A model generated the notes under the pieces. The model did not search any database and had not been told where the DNA came from. It was given only the letters and a program-made list of their open reading frames with translations. The position numbers and the translations under genes are program-made. From assembly GCA_038729465.1 (NCBI GenBank), contig JAVYRZ010000011.1, positions 1 through 34,348 of the forward strand: a DNA stretch of 34,348 bases. Direction: 5' to 3'. The stretch is from Thermoplasmata archaeon. GTDB taxonomy: Archaea > Thermoplasmatota > Thermoplasmata > Thermoplasmatales > ARK-15. Shown here in pieces: positions 1,376 through 32,834 of the stretch. Numbering within the stretch: position 1 is the first letter of the stretch; each line of letters opens with the position of its first letter.

Positions 1376-2017
1376 TTATTTTCTATGCGCAAATAGATAC
1401 ACTGCAACAAAAAATATGGCGAATAAAGGAATCAGTAAAAGATCAGACATATTCGTGAATGCTTCAGAAAACCAGAAGACTGAAAAAGATAAGAGTAAAG
1501 CTGATACTGCGACTTTCATATTAGCCTGTTTGATCTTTCTTACTTGGCTTCTAAGTACAGCGGTACCAATTACAACGATGATTAGACCTGCTGACAGACC
1601 AAAAAATGTGGAATTATAGTTTATAGGGATAAGTGCTACAAGTACAATGGCTGCTTCAAATGCTTCTACTGCTCCCACAGAAAAGCCAGTATAAAATAGG
1701 CCTTTCTCTATCTTTTCGTCATTGGAATTTCCTACACTTCTAGATCTTAATACTGCTCTTCTAGAGCTTCTAGCAAGTCTTAATCCAAAATAAAGCAGTA
1801 AGAATCCAGCCACAAGCCTGATAAGTAATATTGGAAGTAAAGCGATCTCTTTGCCAATAATAAAAGTTATTATCAATACCATTGCTATTCCTAACCCTAC
1901 ATATAAGAACGCCTTTGATCCGCCTTCTGCATAAAGAGCTAAAGCTACTGCTGCAGCTTCAGAAATTTCAAGAAGTGTGATGCCCATAGCCGCAAGAAAT
2001 ATTGCAAAATCTATCAT
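1376..2017 (-). CDS. COG4280-like integral membrane protein with two ExxE repeats
   Basis: A hydrophobic protein of 213 residues with about six or seven membrane segments. It is built from two related halves: TLLEISEAAAVALAL near 14-28 (E17, E20) and GAVEAFEAAIVLVAL near 115-129 (E118, E121). A basic cytosolic loop rich in Arg and Ser lies around 82-105. Paired ExxE motifs inside membrane helices are typical of inverted-repeat cation transporters such as FTR1 and Gdt1-type proteins. I see a resemblance to predicted membrane proteins of COG4280, but the substrate is unknown. An ATG 18 codons further upstream (2071) is in frame, but it lies upstream of a TATA-like box at 2041-2046. That box sits 26 bases before the ATG at 2017, so the shorter start is preferred. 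Confidence 0.7.
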   Translation of the reverse strand: MIDFAIFLAAMGITLLEISEAAAVALALYAEGGSKAFLYVGLGIAMVLIITFIIGKEIALLPILLIRLVAGFLLLYFGLRLARSSRRAVLRSRSVGNSNDEKIEKGLFYTGFSVGAVEAFEAAIVLVALIPINYNSTFFGLSAGLIIVVIGTAVLRSQVRKIKQANMKVAVSALLLSFSVFWFSEAFTNMSDLLLIPLFAIFFVAVYLFAHRK

Positions 2018-2040
2018 TAATAACTTAAATTGGATAATGA

Positions 2041-2046
2041 TATAAA
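2041..2046 (-). promoter_or_regulatory. TATA box for the ExxE-repeat membrane protein
   Basis: On the minus strand the sequence reads TTTTTTTATATCATT, with the TATA core centred about 26 bases before the ATG at 2017. This is the spacing expected for a leaderless archaeal transcript and decides between the two possible start codons. Confidence 0.5.
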
Positions 2047-2104
2047 AAAATATTGTTAAATAACTGTTCAAACAAATGAAATTATTTCAGAAAATTGTAT
2101 ATAC

Positions 2105-2335
2105 AAAAGAAGAACGCAACAATACAGTTGCAGTAGAAAAGAGCTGATCAACTATTTGATGGAAGATCCGTATAAATATCTAAAAGAATAATTCAAGAGA
2201 GAGAATTCAGAAGCAGGATTTTCAGTAGACAAAAGAGAATTTGGTTGGGACACAAGTCAAAAAAGAGAAGATAGAATATCGAGAGCACAAATATGCATAG
2301 TAACAAATCACAACATTTTTTTGATGGGGAAGTAA
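2105..2335 (+). pseudogene. Transposase C-terminal remnant (DDE type, unassigned family)
   Basis: This is the main content of the otherwise gene-free stretch 2018-2444. One frame reads through ELINYLMEDPYKYLKE, then a stop at 2189-2191, then KRENSEAGFSVDKREFGW, QKREDRISRAQICI and NHNIFLMG to a stop at 2333-2335. The pattern NSEAGFSxDK-x-GW-xx-QKREDRI followed by a C-terminal NHN is one I associate with the tail of archaeal IS-element transposases, in which a conserved Glu is followed by a basic segment. It has an internal stop and no N-terminal part. It is therefore a scar, not a working gene. The exact IS family is not certain. Confidence 0.6.
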
Positions 2336-2444
2336 AAAGGACTTATGTTCCCGAACCTAAATATTCGAAAGAATTAAATAATGGAAACAGAATTATAAAA
2401 TAGCTCGATATTCATAATGAAAAAAGGTTTGTTAGGTGTAATAA

Positions 2445-2891
2445 ATGAAAAAAAATGTTAAAGTAAGTGTACTGGACAATTTAGATCTTGATATTTTAAA
2501 ATTTTTAGAGGAAGATTGTACATTAACATATCAAGATATAGCAGACAAGCTAAACAAGAATTTATGGACTGTTAGAGATAGAATTACATTACTGAAAAAT
2601 CGTGGTGTGATTAAAAAATGTAAAGGGATACTGGATTATAGCTTAATGGGCTATGATTGTAAAGGAATATTACTATGTAACATTCCATCAAATCATATTG
2701 AAGAGGCAATCCAGTTTATGAAAACTCAAGAGGAAATCAAGACCATAACTATTATTACTGGAGATAAAAGATTTATTATTACCATAATTGGCAAAAAATG
2801 CAATGACATCAGAAATTATATAAGAAGATACTTTACCAAGTTTGAGATATATAATACTGAACTAAACATAGTGTTAGAGGAACCGCTATAA
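2445..2891 (+). CDS. Lrp/AsnC-family transcriptional regulator
   Basis: A 148-residue DNA-binding regulator. Residues 12-60 form the winged helix-turn-helix (LDLDILKFLEEDCTLTYQDI, then an RDRITLLKNRGVI recognition helix). Residues 75-145 fit an Lrp ligand-binding (RAM) domain, although the usual conserved glycines are weakly preserved. The SD-like TAGGTGTA at 2433-2440 ends four bases before the ATG, which supports this start. The gene is followed 86 bases later by the ACR3-family exporter in the same orientation, which has its own promoter-like TATA region. Control of the exporter by this protein is a reasonable guess but is not shown by the sequence. It is only distantly similar to the second Lrp protein in the window (10266-10700). 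Confidence 0.85.
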   Translation: MKKNVKVSVLDNLDLDILKFLEEDCTLTYQDIADKLNKNLWTVRDRITLLKNRGVIKKCKGILDYSLMGYDCKGILLCNIPSNHIEEAIQFMKTQEEIKTITIITGDKRFIITIIGKKCNDIRNYIRRYFTKFEIYNTELNIVLEEPL

Positions 2892-2977
2892 TATTTAGCA
2901 ATTTTTTGATTATTTTACATTTAAAATACAATTTTTTGTAAATAATTTTTAAATTAATAAATCAATATTCACCGTTT

Positions 2978-4042
2978 ATGACTAATGATTCAAAGTTAGT
3001 AAAATTAAGAGATCATCTGGACAAATTTTTAGCAGTATACGTGGCCATAGCTATAGTAATAGGGCTACTTGCAGGATTGCAGGCAGGTTCGTGGGTGCCT
3101 GGACATAAAGCATTCTTAAGTATGTTAGAGCTTGCTGCCATCATTATAATGATATTTCCGATGATGGTGATGTTAAACTTTAACGGGCTTGCAAAAGGAT
3201 TTAAATCCTGGAAAATGCTTATAGTAGTACTTTTAATGAACTTTGGTTGGGGACCTTTATGGGCCATAATCTTAGGGGATATATTCTTGACCAATCCATT
3301 ATTGAGACTGGGTGTATTTCTGGCTTGGCTAGTACCATGTTCTTCCATGTCTATAGGTTATGTGGGGTTAATGCGCGGAAACATAGAAGCTGCAACAGCG
3401 ATGGTTGCAATAACCTTTATTCTAGCTATACCGATAATTCCAATTTTAGCTGACTGGTACGGTTCTGCATATCATGTAAGCGTTCCTATGATGTTACTGA
3501 TCACCACTATCATAGAGATCATAATAATTCCAATGATTGTAGGACTGATAACACATAGTGCTTTGTTAAAAAAGTTGGGTCCAGCAAAGTTCAAGCAATA
3601 TTCTCCGATCTTTCCGTCAGTGACAATGATCGGAATGTTCTTGATAGTGTTTGTCATTTTCTTTTCAAATGCGAAACTAATGGAAATGCATATAAGCTCA
3701 GTAATTGATATCTTTTACATTGCTGTGATTTTTGGAACTATATCGCTTCTGTTCATGACACTTTTTCTCAAAGCTATCAAATTCAATTTCTGGGACGCTA
3801 TGGCTGCAACGTTCCCCAGCATTGGCAAAAATGAAGCCACGGCAATAGCCATTGCGGCTCTGGCTTTTTCACCATTGGTTGTCATTGCACCATCCGTGTT
3901 TCCAGTATTTCAAATCATATTTTTGGTTACTTACATAAAATTAAGGCCCAGAATTGCACATTTCTACGGCATCAAAACAAGGGATGTAACCTTTAAGGAG
4001 GATATGGAAGAATCAAAAACTGTACAAAGTGGAGGTGAATAA
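2978..4042 (+). CDS. ACR3-type arsenite exporter / bile acid:Na+ symporter superfamily
   Basis: A 354-residue membrane protein with about ten helices, the usual size for ACR3 permeases. Two ACR3 hallmarks are visible. One is a helix with WLVPCSSMSIGY near 119-130, whose Cys matches the conserved Cys of the APC(T)AM motif. The other is GKNEATAIAIA near 297-307, whose Glu matches the conserved Glu of the NNFE helix. Members of this family export arsenite by proton antiport, but the superfamily also holds organic anion symporters, so the substrate is not certain. A TATA-like TTTTTAAATT at 2946-2955 lies about 27 bases before the ATG, and there is no SD. The stop is two bases before the UspA start, so the two genes are surely cotranscribed. 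No arsR or arsM is nearby. Confidence 0.8.
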   Translation: MTNDSKLVKLRDHLDKFLAVYVAIAIVIGLLAGLQAGSWVPGHKAFLSMLELAAIIIMIFPMMVMLNFNGLAKGFKSWKMLIVVLLMNFGWGPLWAIILGDIFLTNPLLRLGVFLAWLVPCSSMSIGYVGLMRGNIEAATAMVAITFILAIPIIPILADWYGSAYHVSVPMMLLITTIIEIIIIPMIVGLITHSALLKKLGPAKFKQYSPIFPSVTMIGMFLIVFVIFFSNAKLMEMHISSVIDIFYIAVIFGTISLLFMTLFLKAIKFNFWDAMAATFPSIGKNEATAIAIAALAFSPLVVIAPSVFPVFQIIFLVTYIKLRPRIAHFYGIKTRDVTFKEDMEESKTVQSGGE

Positions 4043-24874: not shown

Positions 24875-25291
24875 ATGAGTATGAACGAAAAGATGGAGGC
24901 ACTTAAAGAACTGATTGTGAATGATAACTTTTTCAAGTATATAGGCGCTAAAGTAGAAAAAATGGAAGAAGGATATTGCAAAATATCTATTGATTTCAAA
25001 GACAATCTGACAAGATATGGAAATATACTAAATGGTGGGGTAATCTCCACACTTGCTGATTCTGCCGGAGGATGTGCAGTATTGAGCGTCAATGACGGCA
25101 GAGACCAGCTGACTGTGAACCTGAACATTTCATATTTGTCCGCTATAAAATCTGGTCCTGTTGTTGCAGAGGCTACGGTCCTGAGATCCGGAAAAAATAT
25201 CGTTTACGCAGAAATTGATATATTTGATGGGTCTGGAAAAAAATGCGCAAAAGCTATCGGTACCTGGTTTTTCAGAGAAATAAAAATATAA
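24875..25291 (+). CDS. PaaI-like hotdog-fold acyl-CoA thioesterase
   Basis: A 138-residue single hotdog domain. The signature is RYGNILNGGVISTLADSAGG near 47-66, in which N53 takes the place of the usual His of HGG and D62 matches the conserved Asp of LADTA. The central strands QLTVNLNISYLSAIKSGPVV and ATVLRSGKNIVYAEIDIFD are typical. Such enzymes hydrolyse medium-chain or aromatic acyl-CoA esters and often recycle CoA next to degradation pathways. It converges on the acyl-CoA dehydrogenase gene with five bases between. A TATA box CTTATAAATA lies about 24 bases before the ATG, with no SD. Confidence 0.88.
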   Translation: MSMNEKMEALKELIVNDNFFKYIGAKVEKMEEGYCKISIDFKDNLTRYGNILNGGVISTLADSAGGCAVLSVNDGRDQLTVNLNISYLSAIKSGPVVAEATVLRSGKNIVYAEIDIFDGSGKKCAKAIGTWFFREIKI

Positions 25292-25296
25292 AAAAA

Positions 25297-26373
25297 TTAA
25301 AATTTAGCGCTGGGAATATCCAGCACTAAGTTTGCAAGCTTTATTTTGTCACGCAGAGAATTGGTGGTCAGAACTGAGAGCGCCATGGCATCTCTATAAT
25401 ATTTCTCGATCTGGAAATCTTCAAGATAGCCATATCCTCCATGTACCTGTAGCGCCTGTTTAGTGACCCTTATTACAAAGCTTGTTGTCAGATGCTTTAG
25501 CATCAGTTGCTCCTTTTCACTTGGCTCTGACAGAGATAATGTGTCTAGATAATTCTGTAAAGATTTAAGTTCTGCATAATTCTCGCTCATGGCAAACGCA
25601 GGAGATTGAAACTCAGCAATCAAAGATTCAAATGCTTTTCTGACCTTTGAATATTCGATAGCCTTGCTAAGCACGTTTTCGCTCATACCCAGAGATATTG
25701 CGGATATTGCCAGTGATGCTTCATCAAGCAGCTCTTCTATGACCTTTTTAGATCCGTTTTTAGCAACAATATTTTTTTCTGTGAAACTGCTGTTAAACTC
25801 CATTCTGGAAAAATTCAAGCCTCTAAATCCCAGCTTGCTGTTTTCAGAAACTACCTTAAAACCGTTGTCAAGCATCAACAGCATGTGATCAGCACCTGCA
25901 ACAGTGAATACTATATTACTGTTTGAGTTTATTACATAGTTTCTCGCACCAATAACTTTGTTATTCTTTATTTCAAGCAGTGCCGGTGCCGAATTCTGTA
26001 AAACATCTTCCAGTACTATAGCCCCATTAATTTTTCCCGCAGCTATCTTTGGCACATACTCTTCAGCAAGTTCTTTTGAGCTTGATTTCAATAACAGTTT
26101 GATTATTAGCGAGTTCTGAATAAGCACATAAAATGCAAGAGATGGAGAATATTTTGCAAGCTCTTCTAGCAGTATAATATAACTGGCCTGGTCCAAATTA
26201 GAACCTCCATATTCGAATGGCGCAAGAGCACCCATAAATCCTTTTTCAACCATCTTGTCTATCAGCTCTTTGCTTATTCCTTCTCTTTCCACCTTCAAAG
26301 CCACTGGATCTATCTCTTTTTCTGCAAACTCATGTACCAATTTTTTTAACAGTAACTGATCTTCACTGAACAT
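25297..26373 (-). CDS. Acyl-CoA dehydrogenase-like subunit B lacking catalytic Glu
   Basis: A 358-residue member of the acyl-CoA dehydrogenase family. The C-terminal parts that contact the neighbouring subunit's FAD are intact: R245 and F248 in VRKAFESLIAEFQ with Q256, and HGGYGY at 311-316. But the FAD/substrate loop that normally reads TExGAGSD is replaced by LEDVLQNSAP near 121-130. The catalytic Glu in the YEGTS motif is replaced by T336 (YYRDAMALSVLTTNS). Alone it should not be active. The gene overlaps the acyl-CoA dehydrogenase A gene by 11 bases and has a strong SD, GGAGGGATC, before its ATG. It is probably the non-catalytic partner of A, similar in principle to the paired FadE/ChsE heteromers of Mycobacterium. 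Confidence 0.85.
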   Translation of the reverse strand: MFSEDQLLLKKLVHEFAEKEIDPVALKVEREGISKELIDKMVEKGFMGALAPFEYGGSNLDQASYIILLEELAKYSPSLAFYVLIQNSLIIKLLLKSSSKELAEEYVPKIAAGKINGAIVLEDVLQNSAPALLEIKNNKVIGARNYVINSNSNIVFTVAGADHMLLMLDNGFKVVSENSKLGFRGLNFSRMEFNSSFTEKNIVAKNGSKKVIEELLDEASLAISAISLGMSENVLSKAIEYSKVRKAFESLIAEFQSPAFAMSENYAELKSLQNYLDTLSLSEPSEKEQLMLKHLTTSFVIRVTKQALQVHGGYGYLEDFQIEKYYRDAMALSVLTTNSLRDKIKLANLVLDIPSAKF

Positions 26374-27508
26374 CTGATCCCTCCTTTAACTTATTTTTTA
26401 TGAGCATCCGCGCTATGACCAATTTTTCAACCTCGCTTGTTCCTTCCCATATGTCAGTAATCTTAGAATCACGATATAAGCGCTCAAGGTCCGTGTTTAT
26501 TCCCTCAATCCCCATATATTCTAGCACCTTTTCGGTCGCAAATGTGGCCGCTTCTGCAGTATAGTATTTAGCCATGCTCGTTGTGGCCGGGTCAGGATTG
26601 AAATTGAACAGATAGCTTGCAGCTTTGTATGTGATCAATCTCGCAGCTTCGATCTTTGTTGCTATTTCTGCAACCAGCATTTCGGTGTTTTCATTGTCTG
26701 ATACCTTTGATCCAGACCTCTTATTTTTCACTATATAATCCATCAGTCTGTCATATGCACCTTCTGCTATGCCCAGCCCCTGCGCTGCAACATAGATTCT
26801 GCTAATGTTGAAAAACGTCATAACATAATAAAATCCTTTGCCTACTTCTCCAATTATATTTTCTTCTGGTATTTCAACATTGTCAAATGTCAACTCTGCA
26901 GTGTTCGTAGCCCTCATTCCCATCTTTCCTTTCAGCTGCGATGCAGAAAAGCCAGGCATGCTCGATTCTACTATTATCATCGTCATGCCATGATGTCTCT
27001 TTTCAAATGAAGGTGGGGGAGATGTGCGCGTTAATGCATAAAAATGATTTGCTACGGTTCCATTTGTGATAAACATCTTCTCTCCATTCAATATCCATTT
27101 TCCATTTTTCTTCTCAAGTTTTGAGGATATTCCAGCAACATCACTTCCTGCACCAGATTCTGTGATTGCAAAGCCGCTGATCTTCTCACCTCTGAGCACC
27201 GGCTCTAGATACTTTTTCTTCTGCTCTTCAGAGCCGTAAAACATCAGAACTTCAGATCCAAACGCTGGCACCAAAGATGATAACCCGAGCCCTGGATCCA
27301 CTCTGCAAAATTCTTCCATGGTAACAAGCATGCCCCATGGATTGTTAATATCTAAAAATCCAGCTTCATATGCTTTCTTTCTTATTTCATCAGGGTACTT
27401 TTCATTCTTGTCATAATAAACTTTTTTTTCTGCTGTAAACTCTTTCAATGCAAACTCTCTTGCTTTTTTTCTTACCTTTTCCACATCTTCAGGCAACGTA
27501 AAATCCAT
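26363..27508 (-). CDS. Acyl-CoA dehydrogenase subunit A (catalytic)
   Basis: A 381-residue flavoprotein that oxidises acyl-CoA to trans-2-enoyl-CoA. The FAD/substrate loop AITESGAGSDVAG (TESGAGSD at 116-123) and the catalytic base E355 in DIWEGTSEVEKL are present. However, the region that should contact the FAD of the adjacent subunit is altered. The usual RxxFG...FQ segment reads NKRSGSKVSDNE at 262-273, so Arg, Phe and Gln are replaced by N262, S265 and E273. HGGYG is replaced by MGIEG at 332-336. Subunit B keeps exactly those elements, which points to an A-B heterodimer with one FAD site. A GTGAT SD-like site lies just before the ATG and overlaps the thiolase stop. The gene sits five bases after the thiolase gene. 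Confidence 0.9.
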   Translation of the reverse strand: MDFTLPEDVEKVRKKAREFALKEFTAEKKVYYDKNEKYPDEIRKKAYEAGFLDINNPWGMLVTMEEFCRVDPGLGLSSLVPAFGSEVLMFYGSEEQKKKYLEPVLRGEKISGFAITESGAGSDVAGISSKLEKKNGKWILNGEKMFITNGTVANHFYALTRTSPPPSFEKRHHGMTMIIVESSMPGFSASQLKGKMGMRATNTAELTFDNVEIPEENIIGEVGKGFYYVMTFFNISRIYVAAQGLGIAEGAYDRLMDYIVKNKRSGSKVSDNENTEMLVAEIATKIEAARLITYKAASYLFNFNPDPATTSMAKYYTAEAATFATEKVLEYMGIEGINTDLERLYRDSKITDIWEGTSEVEKLVIARMLIKNKLKEGSDVQ

Positions 27509-27513
27509 TTAAA

Positions 27514-28698
27514 TCACACTCTCTCAACGCTCATTGAAAATCCCTGCCCACCACCTACACACAGTGTGGCAATGCCACGCTCTTTTTTCTTATCCTGCAA
27601 GGTTCTCGCAAGGGTTCCCAAAATTCTAGTACCTGTAGCACCCAACGGATGCCCGATCGCAGTTGCACCGCCATGTATGTTCACTTTATCTATATCCAAT
27701 CCCAGCTCTCTTATTGCATAGAGAGAAACTACTGCAAATGCCTCGTTGATCTCCCAGTAATCTATATCAGATGCTTTAAGATTCAGTTTCTTCAACAGCT
27801 TCTGACTGGCTGGTACAGGCCCTTTACCCATAACGCTCGGGTCTACACCTGCCCATGCCATGCCCGTGATCTTTGCAAGAGGCTTTAGCCCATATTCTTT
27901 GACTTTCTTGTCTGACATCAACATCACCAATGATGCTCCGGCATTGAGCGGAGATGAGTTTCCTGCAGTAATAACGCCATCAGCCTTGAACGCAGGTGGC
28001 AGCTTTTTTATTTGCTCGAGAGTAGTGTCTGCCCTTATGGCCATATCGTGGTCTACAACCTTCATAGATCCATTATATTCAACTTCGATAGGCAGTATCT
28101 CATCCTTGAACCAGCCCTCATCTAAAGCTTTTGCTGCTAATTGATGACTTCTCACCGCAAATTGATCCATCTGCTCTTTTTTTATGCCGCTTTCTTCAGC
28201 CAGTTTTTCAGCGGTCAAGCCCATACTGTATCCTATGTTCATCTGGTATCTTAGATACTCAGGCCTGATCAAAAGTTTGTAGTTTGGATTGATGTGCGGA
28301 TTATTTGCTAATGGAACATGTGTCATATGCTCCATTCCACCCGCCAAAACTATATCTGATGCGCCGGTCATTATCTCCATAGTGCCAATGCTTGCAGCCA
28401 TCAAAGATGACGAGCATGCTCGGTCTACCGCCATGGCCGGCACTTCTACTGGTAACTCTGCCAGAAACACTGGATGCCTTCCGCCATATAACCAGTTTTC
28501 GTCTGCCTGTAACGCACAGCCAGATATCACATCCCCTATTTCCAGAGGATTTATTCCGGTCCTTTCTATCTCTTTTTTTAATAACATGCCCAGTGCTTCA
28601 TCCATACGCAGTGTGTTAAAAACATCTTTTTCAGGTTCTGTAGGCCTGGATCTGGAAAACGCAGTTCTCAAATAATCTACTAAATATACATCTGTCAT
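27514..28698 (-). CDS. Acetyl-CoA acetyltransferase / 3-ketoacyl-CoA thiolase
   Basis: A 394-residue thiolase, which cleaves 3-ketoacyl-CoA with CoA to acetyl-CoA and a shortened acyl-CoA. The nucleophile is C95 in DRACSSSLMA. NEAFAVVS, H350 in AIGHPLGATG, and the acid/base C380 in LCVGGGQG complete the active site. It is full length and colinear with bacterial FadA/AtoB-type enzymes, unlike the shorter archaeal mevalonate-pathway thiolases that depend on a DUF35 partner. No DUF35 gene is adjacent. An AGTGAT SD-like site precedes the ATG. It lies nine bases after the dehydrogenase/hydratase fusion in the operon. Confidence 0.94.
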   Translation of the reverse strand: MTDVYLVDYLRTAFSRSRPTEPEKDVFNTLRMDEALGMLLKKEIERTGINPLEIGDVISGCALQADENWLYGGRHPVFLAELPVEVPAMAVDRACSSSLMAASIGTMEIMTGASDIVLAGGMEHMTHVPLANNPHINPNYKLLIRPEYLRYQMNIGYSMGLTAEKLAEESGIKKEQMDQFAVRSHQLAAKALDEGWFKDEILPIEVEYNGSMKVVDHDMAIRADTTLEQIKKLPPAFKADGVITAGNSSPLNAGASLVMLMSDKKVKEYGLKPLAKITGMAWAGVDPSVMGKGPVPASQKLLKKLNLKASDIDYWEINEAFAVVSLYAIRELGLDIDKVNIHGGATAIGHPLGATGTRILGTLARTLQDKKKERGIATLCVGGGQGFSMSVERV

Positions 28699-28707
28699 AA
28701 TTATTAA

Positions 28708-30705
28708 TCACTTCCCTTTAAATTCCGGCTTTTTCTTGGATAACATTGCAGTTATCCCTTCTTTCAAATCTTCGGTGCTGTATACTATGCCCGCAGCAAA
28801 AGATTCCATCTCTAGTCCTATATCCATTCCTGCCTCTACACCTTTATTAACAAGCCTCTTTGCCAGTGCTGCCGAGATGGGCGCAGAGGTCATCGCTATC
28901 TCTTTTGCATAGTTTAAAGATTCAGTATCTATATCTTTAAATATCTTTGCTACTAACCCTATATCATATGCATCTTTTCCCGTTATTCGCTCTCCTGTAA
29001 GAACAAGCTGCAGTGCTTTTGACATGCCTACCAACTTTGCAAGCCTTTGTGAGCCACCCCAAGCAGGTATCAGCCCCAATGTTACCTCTGGCAACCCCAA
29101 TTTCACATCCTCTGTAGCAACCCTGATATCGCAGGCCATCGACAGCTCTAGACCTCCGCCAAGCGCATAACCTTTTATTGCTGCTATGGTGATTTTTGGG
29201 ATCTCTGACAGTCTCCTAAATATACGTTCTCCCTTTCTTGAAAATTCTAAAAAATGCTGCGGTGTTGGAAAATATGAGGTTAGCTCTGCGCCCGCTGAAA
29301 AAGTAGTGCCCTGCCCTGTGATCAAGATCACATTTACCATGTTATCGTTCCAGAGCATATCAATCGCTTTATTTAAATCGTCAAGTACCTCTTCATTTAT
29401 AGTATTGTGCTTTGGCCTGTTTATTATAATGCGCACAACCTTCTCTTCAAATCGCTCAATTATCAGTGTGTTTAAAGTCTCAGAGCCCTGCGCTTTTATA
29501 GGCTCGATCTTTACCTCTTTCTTCTCTTCTTTTTTTGCTACTTGATATAACCTGCCATCTACCGCTTCTCTCATTTTTCCTTGCTTTAGCGCATCTGCAG
29601 GCTCGAATACTTTACAATCATATTGTTTGGCAAGGCTCTCTAGCTTTGCCTTTACTTCCGCATTTGTAAGGCTTTTTGCTATGGTGATTGGCCCGAATGG
29701 TCTGTTTAACCCTAATTTTACAGCTGTTTCAATGTCTTGCGGTGTGGCTATCCCTTCTTGCAAAATTTTTAATGCTTCATTTATTTCTATCGAAAACAAA
29801 TCTATCAATGCCAGTTTCTTGGTGCTCTTGCTGGTATCTATGTGCGGCCTTCCTGCACTCCAGTCATAAAAACCCTTGCCAGTTTTCTTGCCCAACATTT
29901 TTTTGTCGACAAGTTCTTTGAAAGTTTTGCATTTGAGATACTCAGGAGAAAGCTCTTTGCCATAATACTGAAGCGAATCATAAACTATATCAATGCCTAC
30001 AAAGTCGAGAAGCTCATAAGGACCCATGGGCAATCCCTGCGTTTTGCCAAATGCATCGATTTCTTCAGGACTGGCTACATTATGATCCTGCAACAAACAG
30101 AAAAACAGCATGTCAGGCGCATTGATCCTGTTCACTATGAACCCGGGTGAATCTTTGTTAACCCTGACCCCGGTCTTTCCTATTTTTTTAACCAGTTCAG
30201 CTACTGTATCCATCGTTGCGTCATCAGTATCATCGCCCCTGATTATTTCGACCAGCTTCATCATAATTGGCGGATTGAAAAAATGTATACCTACTACCCG
30301 TTTTGGATCCGATACATTCTTGGCGAGCTCGGTAATTTTTATATTGGATGTGTTAGATCCAAGTATCGCATCTTTTTTGGCAAACTGATCTAACTGCTTG
30401 AAAATCTGGTTTTTTAATGATACAATTTCTGGAACTGCTTCGATAACCAGATCTGCATCTTTAACCGCTTTTTCTATTTCTGTGTAACTGCTTATCCTAC
30501 CTAAAATTTGGTTAGATTGCTCTTCTGTTATATTTCCTTTTTTTACAAATTTCGCAATGCTCTCTGTTATACTGTTAATTGCCTTTTTTAAGGCTTCAGG
30601 AGAAATATCCATCATGTTTACTGTATATCCGGCCATGGCAAATACTTCCACTATACCATGCCCCATATCTCCTGATCCGATCACTGCTATCTTTTCTATC
30701 GCCAT
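28708..30705 (-). CDS. 3-hydroxyacyl-CoA dehydrogenase / enoyl-CoA hydratase fusion
   Basis: A 665-residue bifunctional enzyme with the dehydrogenase first and the hydratase second, the reverse of bacterial FadB/FadJ. Residues 1-190 are the NAD-binding Rossmann domain (GSGDMG at 10-15; S120, H141, E153 and N192 at the active-site positions). Residues 190-390 contain the two 3HCDH C-terminal domains. After a charged linker near 390-405, residues 411-665 form a crotonase fold with both catalytic Glu residues, E520 in GGGLELSMACD and E540 in LGLPEVTLGL. This order is known in archaea, such as the crotonyl-CoA hydratase/3-hydroxybutyryl-CoA dehydrogenases of Sulfolobales. The SD AAGGTGAT precedes the ATG, next to the SCP2 stop. 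It catalyses the two middle steps of beta-oxidation. Confidence 0.95.
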   Translation of the reverse strand: MAIEKIAVIGSGDMGHGIVEVFAMAGYTVNMMDISPEALKKAINSITESIAKFVKKGNITEEQSNQILGRISSYTEIEKAVKDADLVIEAVPEIVSLKNQIFKQLDQFAKKDAILGSNTSNIKITELAKNVSDPKRVVGIHFFNPPIMMKLVEIIRGDDTDDATMDTVAELVKKIGKTGVRVNKDSPGFIVNRINAPDMLFFCLLQDHNVASPEEIDAFGKTQGLPMGPYELLDFVGIDIVYDSLQYYGKELSPEYLKCKTFKELVDKKMLGKKTGKGFYDWSAGRPHIDTSKSTKKLALIDLFSIEINEALKILQEGIATPQDIETAVKLGLNRPFGPITIAKSLTNAEVKAKLESLAKQYDCKVFEPADALKQGKMREAVDGRLYQVAKKEEKKEVKIEPIKAQGSETLNTLIIERFEEKVVRIIINRPKHNTINEEVLDDLNKAIDMLWNDNMVNVILITGQGTTFSAGAELTSYFPTPQHFLEFSRKGERIFRRLSEIPKITIAAIKGYALGGGLELSMACDIRVATEDVKLGLPEVTLGLIPAWGGSQRLAKLVGMSKALQLVLTGERITGKDAYDIGLVAKIFKDIDTESLNYAKEIAMTSAPISAALAKRLVNKGVEAGMDIGLEMESFAAGIVYSTEDLKEGITAMLSKKKPEFKGK

Positions 30706-30719
30706 AATTTATCACCTTT

Positions 30720-31052
30720 TTAACTTACTTTTTTTACGATGTTTATCAGTTTTTGAGATAAGAATATATCTCCTGTAAACTTAATTTTACCTGAAAAAAA
30801 CGCTTTTGTACCGTCCAGTTTTCCTGATAATATGTCTTGCATCACCTCGTCTGTTGCAATAATAGTAACATTTGGAGTGGCAAATGCTCCCAAATTCAGA
30901 GAAAGATCTCCAGATTCCATGATTTGCAAATAGAATTTATCCCCCCCAAGTTCAAATTGCAAAATTTTGGATGCACCTTTTAGTTCACTTTTTACAGAAT
31001 CACTGGCGTTTGCTCTTTTTACTATGCTTTCTAAAATTTCATAGCTTTTCAT
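30720..31052 (-). CDS. SCP2 sterol-carrier-like lipid-binding protein
   Basis: A 110-residue single SCP2 domain, a small alpha/beta fold with a hydrophobic tunnel for acyl chains or acyl-CoA. It is recognised from ILQFELGGDKFYLQI, SGDLSLNLGAFATPNVTIIA (an SCP2 'P-D/N-V' strand), VMQDILSGKLDGTKAFFSGK, and IKFTGDIFLSQKLINIVKKV. It is the first gene of the beta-oxidation operon, 14 bases before the dehydrogenase/hydratase fusion. A carrier role for acyl-CoA intermediates is likely, by analogy with peroxisomal SCP2 domains. A weak TATA-like site (about 31073-31079) is 24 bases upstream, and there is no SD. Confidence 0.85.
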   Translation of the reverse strand: MKSYEILESIVKRANASDSVKSELKGASKILQFELGGDKFYLQIMESGDLSLNLGAFATPNVTIIATDEVMQDILSGKLDGTKAFFSGKIKFTGDIFLSQKLINIVKKVS

Positions 31053-31138: not shown

Positions 31139-32743
31139 TTATTTATATTGCTTGCGCAGCTCTTTTTTGTCGATCTTGCCAGTGCTTGTTTTTGGCAATT
31201 CTTTCATAAATATAACTCTATCTGGCAACCACCATTTTTGTATCCTGCCCACATCAACGTACTTTTCAAGATGTTTGTAAACATCGTCTTCGGTCAAAGT
31301 TCCAGAGGCTGTTATGTATGCTACTGGCCTTTCACCCCACTTTTCGTTTGGTATGCCCACAATAGCTACTTCGCCAACACCTTTGCACTCGCTTATGACA
31401 TTCTCGAGAACGAGCGAAGGTATGAACTCACCACCACTTTTCACTGCATCTTTCTCTCTGTCTACAATATGTATATACCCCATACTGTCTATCTCTGCAA
31501 GATCACCTGTGTGAAGCCATCCATCTTTCCACAACTCGCTTGTCTTTTCTGGATCTTTGTAATACTCTGTAGTAAGCCATGGCGCCCTGACCACTATCTC
31601 TCCAATGCTCTTATTGTTCCATGGCACCTCTTTGCCACCAGAATCAATAACCTTTATATTGACAAACGGTATCGGTATGCCAGTGCTGATTTTATACTCA
31701 AACTTGTCCTCATCTTTCATGTTCTTGATCTTATTGGTAAATAGTGCAATAGAAAGAACAGGACAGGTCTCTGACAATCCGTACCCGCCAATGGTCTCTA
31801 TTCCATAGCTCTCAGCTTTCTTAGCAAGTCCTTTTGGCGTTGCTGCGCCTCCTATTACTACTTTCCAGCCTTTTAAATATTTTGCATAGCGTTCTATGTC
31901 CGGATAACCAAGTATCATGTACAAAATTGAAGGTACCATCAATGTAAGGGTCACATGCTCATTTTTTATCAGCTCCAAAATGTTTTTAACATCGTATCTG
32001 CCGGGCAGTACGTATTTATTTCCAGTAATCATCGTTACATACGGCAGTCCCCAAGAATGAACATGAAACATAGGAACTAAGCTCATAAATACGTCTTTAT
32101 CTGTGACGTATAATGGCTCCATATGCACTGCCATGGCAAGCGCTTCTGCATGCAAAACCAGATTTCTGTGCGTAAATGTAACACCTTTTGGCAATCCTGT
32201 GGTACCGGAGGTATAGAATATCGTAGCAGTAGTGTTTTCGTCAAGATCTGGAAATTCATAAGGCTCTGAGGTATCTACTAATTCTTCATAATGATATGAC
32301 GGAGATAAAATAGTTTTTATATCATCAGTAGTATCAGAATATATAATCCATCCTTTTATAAAATCAAAGAGCTGTATTGCCTTTTCAATAATAGGCACAA
32401 ATTCATCTCTTATTATCACATACTTGTCTTCAGCATGCTGCATTGTATAAAATATCAGTTCGGGTGGATATCGGATGTTTACAGTGTGCATTACTGCTCC
32501 TGTCATTGGTATTGCAAAATAGCTTTCCATATAATGGTTAGTATCCCAGTCAAGAACCGCTATTTTGTCTCCTGGCTTTACACCAATTTTCAATAATGCA
32601 TTCGCAATTCTGCTCACTCTATCATAAAACTCTTTAAAACTAAACTTTTTCAGGTTTTGATAGACAATTTCTTGGTCTGAAAAATTTCTCAAAGATGAGG
32701 GAAATATGTTTTTTATATTCAATTCAAACTTGTATTTTTCCAT
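31139..32743 (-). CDS. Medium/long-chain fatty acid-CoA ligase
   Basis: A 534-residue ANL-superfamily ligase that activates fatty acids to acyl-CoA through an acyl-adenylate. The phosphate loop FYTSGTTGLPKG lies near 176-187. GGYGLSETCPV is the A5 motif, LHTGDLA the A7 motif, DREKDAVKSGGEFI the A8 hinge, and KTSTGKIDKKELRKQ the C-terminal catalytic lysine motif A10. It resembles AlkK-like medium-chain ligases. An in-frame start 29 codons upstream (32830) would overlap a promoter. A TATA box at about 32768-32777 sits 27 bases before the ATG at 32743, giving the natural start MEKYKFELNIK. The gene supplies substrates for the beta-oxidation operon that follows on the same strand. Confidence 0.92.
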   Translation of the reverse strand: MEKYKFELNIKNIFPSSLRNFSDQEIVYQNLKKFSFKEFYDRVSRIANALLKIGVKPGDKIAVLDWDTNHYMESYFAIPMTGAVMHTVNIRYPPELIFYTMQHAEDKYVIIRDEFVPIIEKAIQLFDFIKGWIIYSDTTDDIKTILSPSYHYEELVDTSEPYEFPDLDENTTATIFYTSGTTGLPKGVTFTHRNLVLHAEALAMAVHMEPLYVTDKDVFMSLVPMFHVHSWGLPYVTMITGNKYVLPGRYDVKNILELIKNEHVTLTLMVPSILYMILGYPDIERYAKYLKGWKVVIGGAATPKGLAKKAESYGIETIGGYGLSETCPVLSIALFTNKIKNMKDEDKFEYKISTGIPIPFVNIKVIDSGGKEVPWNNKSIGEIVVRAPWLTTEYYKDPEKTSELWKDGWLHTGDLAEIDSMGYIHIVDREKDAVKSGGEFIPSLVLENVISECKGVGEVAIVGIPNEKWGERPVAYITASGTLTEDDVYKHLEKYVDVGRIQKWWLPDRVIFMKELPKTSTGKIDKKELRKQYK

Positions 32744-32767
32744 AATAAATCTTAATGATTTATCTAA

Positions 32768-32794
32768 TATAAAAATATTATTACTAACTTTAGT
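32768..32794 (-). promoter_or_regulatory. TATA box and adjacent palindrome of the acyl-CoA ligase gene
   Basis: The TATA-like AATATTTTTATATT is centred about 27 bases before the ATG at 32743. Just upstream lies the palindrome ACTAA-CT-TTAGT (32783-32794), a candidate operator. The promoter position rules out the longer reading of the ligase. Confidence 0.45.
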
Positions 32795-32834
32795 ATCGGT
32801 TTTGAAAATGTATCTATAAAATAAAGACAAAAAT

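Follow-up and report, generated by a model that had tools for sequence, protein, structure and literature searches.

Results

Two overlapping genes on the minus strand of a Thermoplasmatales contig (JAVYRZ010000011.1) very probably encode the two subunits, alpha and beta, of an acyl-CoA dehydrogenase (ACAD) that is an obligate heteromer, to judge from the way the residues of a single active site are divided between their sequences. The window that we analyzed is a 34,348-nucleotide stretch of this contig. Subunit A (alpha; 26363..27508, minus strand, as are all features given below except one) is a 381-residue ACAD whose motif columns mark it as the flavin, substrate, and catalytic half-site. 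Subunit B (beta; 25297..26373) is a degenerate ACAD of 358 residues that appears to retain the ADP-binding half only. The first-pass annotation had described two overlapping reading frames here, and their strand, coordinates, and 11 bp overlap (26363..26373) all agree with the sequence. The ATG start codon of B is at 26373 and a ribosome-binding-like AGGAGG (26380..26385) lies six nucleotides before it, inside the 3' end of A, so the pair looks translationally coupled.

In homomeric ACADs of the MCAD family, the R..F..Q and HGG segments of each FAD site are supplied by the neighboring subunit. We aligned A and B with six further ACADs of the same genome, and every residue that had been named for the two proteins checked out. 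A keeps the flavin-binding loop TESGAGSD (residues 116–123; 27140..27163), FITNG at 146–150, R237, and the catalytic base Glu355, which lies within IWEGTSE at the MCAD-type position (26444..26446). In A, the R, F, and Q of homomers are replaced by N262, S265, and E273 (26690..26725), and MGIEG (332–336; 26501..26515) stands in place of HGGYG. B keeps R245, F248, and Q256 (25606..25641) together with HGGYGY (311–316; 25426..25443). Its segment aligned with TExGAGSD is a hypervariable EDVLQNS (25990..26010) in which the motif is lost, and T336 occupies the catalytic-Glu position (25366..25368). Going beyond what had been claimed, neither the FITN strand nor an Arg equivalent to position 237 of A is present in B. 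We considered whether B might hide an alternative Glu at the helix-G position used by IVD and LCAD, and rejected this; the aligned residue is Ala (LLDEASLAIS). None of the B proteins examined has a Glu at the catalytic position. Two other ACAD paralogues of the window's genome (L002:2078-3214 on contig C6 and L006:811-1983 on contig C4) lack the C-terminal Glu and the Phe of R..F, and have Gly and Ala, respectively, at the helix-G Glu position.

All three domains of the ACAD superfamily (PF02771, PF02770, and PF00441) were found in A, while B has the N- and C-terminal ones only (PF02771 and PF00441). The middle domain, PF02770, was detected in 17/17 A proteins scanned and was undetectable in 17/17 B proteins. 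Despite this, the monomer model of B has the whole ACAD fold (TM about 0.8–0.9, pLDDT 90.7); the model of A also has the ACAD fold (pLDDT 84.6). The sole listed segment of the B model with pLDDT below 50 is residues 314–319, within and just after HGGYGY. This is the piece that we would expect the partner's FAD to order, although the low confidence is suggestive only.

We then asked how far the division of residues extends. A search for B in 60 relatives gave 30 best loci, the window's own included. In each of the 30, B is immediately preceded by an A-type gene in the same orientation, although the A gene of L028 is truncated where its contig ends. Together with a scan of named genomes and a phylum search, this yielded 51 distinct A–B pairs. 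All 51 A proteins keep T116, E117, S122, D123, R237, and E355, and in all 51 B proteins the Arg, the Phe, and every glycine of the three in HGGYG are conserved. None of the 51 A proteins combines Arg with Phe in R..F or has GG: the A protein of L138 has Arg at 262 but neither Phe nor GG, and in four others Phe occurs at 265 in the absence of the Arg. Likewise, no B protein in this set has the SD loop or the Glu. The complementary half-sites first noticed in the window therefore recur as the same split in every pair, with neither subunit keeping the other's half, and a complete FAD site plus Glu in one chain, as found in homomeric ACADs, occurs in neither A nor B in any of the 51. One part of the original description can be refined. 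The Arg and Phe of R..F..Q do belong to the split, but the Gln is not part of the rule, being present in 24/51 B proteins; the equivalent position of A is Glu in 51/51.

The check proposed with the first-pass annotation, to look in Thermoplasmata genomes for neighboring A and B genes carrying these substitutions, thus came out strongly positive. The intergenic gap from A to B is mostly −26 to +5 nucleotides, with B immediately downstream every time. This excludes the pattern that would have counted against a heteromer, namely ordinary separate enzymes that do not co-occur. Given at least 51 related adjacent pairs with the same complementary halves, A and B almost certainly function only when paired.

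Every catalytic residue is retained in A, and one A-clade protein has no B beside it (see below), so A alone might be an active homomer that holds FAD in an altered way, with B as a non-catalytic companion such as a regulator, a lipid carrier, or an ETF-docking protein. We consider this very unlikely. It does not explain why the Arg, Phe, and HGGYG of B are invariant in 51/51 pairs when the flavin loop and middle domain of the same protein have degenerated, nor why the clamp has been lost from A only in the lineage that has B.

The A-clade protein in question (L174:3385-4515, genome G306) is the one clear exception: a long-branched paralogue with a hydroxyacyl-CoA dehydrogenase and acyl-CoA ligases as neighbors, in a genome that also has a second, normal pair. 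It may share the other B of that genome or may have turned into something else. Other apparent orphans are cut by contig ends (L043, L028, L160, and L178) or have frame breaks (L066, L157 and L161 (Thermogymnomonas), and L135). L135 comes from a closed genome (G024), where B is split into two ORFs in two frames; this may be a sequencing error, a frameshift, or a real split.

That split gene, and the fact that B evolves at about twice the rate of A, could be taken as signs that B is a decaying pseudogene or an annotation accident, with A degenerate alongside it. The chance of this is negligible, and the selection and conservation data refute it: B is full-length, its motifs are invariant in 51 pairs, and its dN/dS in close pairs is 0.04–0.18, far below 1 and indicative of purifying selection. 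B is thus not a pseudogene.

Nor can adjacency alone have caused the losses. Seven adjacent ACAD pairs in Bacillota, outside the A–B clade, have an intact site in both copies. The nearest A homologues outside the clade, which come from Archaeoglobi, Desulfobacterota, Bipolaricaulota, Aquificota, Bacillota, and others and are mostly 35–45% identical, lack B, and their sites are complete in every case. An A-type gene followed by an intact ACAD was found in none of the adjacent ACAD pairs in the fetched loci. Since both the B-less homologues of A and the Bacillota pairs are intact, complementary loss is specific to the A–B clade and not due to adjacency.

Several ACADs outside this clade show partial degeneration of their own. 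Two A-like proteins (L167:3737-4879, genome G068, and L175:3291-4442, genome G077) have lost R..F and HGG but keep the flavin loop and the Glu, and a degenerate partner is absent next door; these are possible split-site enzymes of another kind. Two bacterial adjacent pairs (L055:557-1756 and 1839-3128; L098:2790-5062), in Bacillota and Desulfarculus bins, have one degenerate member each and are candidates for further heteromers. The upstream member of the L055 pair has its Glu at the helix-G position.

In a tree of 81 proteins, A and B each form one clade with 100% SH-aLRT support, and the A clade sits among enzymes of the intact, homomeric type from Archaeoglobi and Desulfobacterota. The free tree does not place A and B as sisters, but B branches are long and an AU test did not reject a single clade (p = 0.295). 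Distances among A proteins correlate with those among B proteins (r = 0.82; maximum of 0.13 in 500 permutations). The species tree accounts for some of this signal, which we therefore take as evidence of co-inheritance and not of contact.

The pair is present in three families (f1, f3, and f6) of the window's order, Thermoplasmatales, and in three genomes labelled Thaumarchaeota or Conexivisphaerales (loci L039, L040, and L110 in genomes G328, G327, and G326, respectively). Two of these three genomes are represented in the tree, where their A proteins group with the window's family. Gene order in the Conexivisphaerales/"Thaumarchaeota" loci is the same as in the window, with SCP-2, the hydroxyacyl-CoA dehydrogenase/hydratase fusion, thiolase, A, and B in succession. 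This grouping and the common gene order point to horizontal transfer, and suggest that the whole beta-oxidation cassette moved between archaeal phyla. When 300 genomes of the phylum of G326 (Conexivisphaerales) were searched, B was found in G326 only.

The pair closes an operon whose other members were assigned by domain or model matches. In order of transcription these are an acyl-CoA ligase of the PRK06187 subfamily (31139..32830), a stand-alone SCP-2 lipid-binding protein (30720..31052), a 3-hydroxyacyl-CoA dehydrogenase/enoyl-CoA hydratase fusion (28708..30705), and a PRK06445-type thiolase (27514..28698) directly upstream of A. A gene for a hotdog-fold acyl-CoA thioesterase on the plus strand (24875..25291) is convergent with B and adjoins the pair at some of the loci. 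Every examined locus whose sequence continues upstream of A preserves the order thiolase, A, B (the L186 contig ends there), and in several relatives, too, the SCP-2 gene adjoins the fusion gene. The neighbors of A and B are general beta-oxidation genes and do not form a steroid catabolism cluster. The presence of SCP-2 in this archaeal operon is a hint that the substrate is bulky or has a long chain.

Discussion

In the arrangement that we propose, A would contribute Glu355 as catalytic base together with the substrate pocket and the flavin loop, and B, reaching over the dimer interface, would contribute the Arg/Phe pair and HGGYG to clamp the ADP moiety of the FAD bound by A. With the clamp of B on the FAD held by A, an AB dimer would have one live site; because B has lost the loop and A has lost the clamp, the second site would be dead. 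By analogy with the paired enzymes discussed below, the particle is probably an alpha2beta2 tetramer with two FADs, one per AB dimer. Such an enzyme would carry out the first oxidation of its beta-oxidation operon, yielding trans-2-enoyl-CoA, and would presumably pass electrons to an ETF, for which the genome has two gene pairs.

The substrate probably belongs to ordinary fatty-acyl or isoprenoid-acyl catabolism. Thermoplasmatales from acid mine drainage carry and express beta-oxidation genes, and their many ACADs make the individual roles of these genes hard to tell (PMC3750248). Annotating A and B as separate acyl-CoA dehydrogenases would overcount the enzymes of this order, and attempts to express either one alone would probably fail.

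As a speculation that we think is more likely wrong than right, split-site ACADs could have arisen independently in archaea with the dead beta half kept because it allowed the complex to take bulky acyl chains. In that case, this Thermoplasmatales enzyme would oxidize long or branched isoprenoid acyl-CoAs, perhaps derived from archaeal lipids, and the SCP-2 protein of the operon would present them to it.

So far, the literature has treated heteromeric ACADs as particular to steroid catabolism in bacteria. The examples that we found in the literature are steroid or bile-acid enzymes plus a suggested dicarboxylate case. We found no report of a heteromeric archaeal ACAD, which is weak evidence given that the subscription and primary ChsE literature was poorly covered. 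A conserved counterpart in archaea, encoded in an operon for general beta-oxidation, would mean that partition of the active site between paralogues arose more than once in the superfamily, and would offer a natural experiment on why active sites get partitioned.

The closest parallel in organization is with ChsE4-ChsE5 (FadE26-FadE27) and ChsE1-ChsE2 of Mycobacterium tuberculosis, alpha2beta2 enzymes (4X28) that, like A–B, combine two partly degenerate ACAD chains. The alpha subunit of ChsE4-ChsE5 carries the catalytic Glu and binds both substrate and isoalloxazine, and the ADP-ribose of FAD is bound by the beta subunit (PMC11153573). There is one FAD and one live site per alpha-beta dimer, and activity requires the heterotetramer (PMC8399759). 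The residues of A and B, known here from sequence, are divided in a manner that matches these alpha and beta roles. The ChsE pairs, however, are bacterial and belong to a steroid cluster, whereas A–B is archaeal and belongs to a general beta-oxidation operon. The position of the base appears to differ as well: steroid alpha subunits typically use a helix-G Glu, and A has its Glu at the MCAD-type C-terminal position.

Other heteromers encoded by paired genes, as A–B is, include IpdE1-IpdE2, Scd1AB, the Thermomonospora curvata steroid ACAD (Tcur3481), and the proposed PimCD and relatives. For PimCD-type ACADs, the dicarboxylate case, a heteromeric nature has been suggested (PMC12543098). These systems serve bacterial steroid, bile-acid, or dicarboxylate catabolism, and their similarity to A–B is low.

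The same division of the site and the same two-gene arrangement, along with a weak match of the C-terminal domain of B to the IpdE2 model, might mean that A–B is a direct lineal member of this ChsE/IpdE/Scd/PimCD family, acquired from bacteria. We regard such descent as highly improbable. The profile of A scores 134 bits to ChsE4 (4x28_A) versus 299 to homomeric MmgC, and that of B scores 76 bits to the T. curvata steroid subunit (6wy8_A) versus 171 to homomeric CarC. The place of A among intact enzymes in our tree, the standard beta-oxidation genes of the operon, and the C-terminal Glu of A also argue against it. A plasmid search for steroid-type beta subunits to serve as tree outgroup returned partial ACAD matches only.

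The resemblance to mycobacterial ChsE/FadE pairs that the first-pass annotation had drawn thus holds for the division of labor but probably fails for close kinship, since profile scores favor homomeric enzymes. In both sequence and fold, the nearest solved relatives of A and B are the homomeric short-chain or butyryl-CoA dehydrogenases MmgC (5lnx), 4l1f, and CarC (6fah). Each chain of those enzymes has a whole FAD site, whereas A and B have half each. Judged by these profile scores, the split-site A–B enzyme probably arose independently of the ChsE and IpdE pairs.
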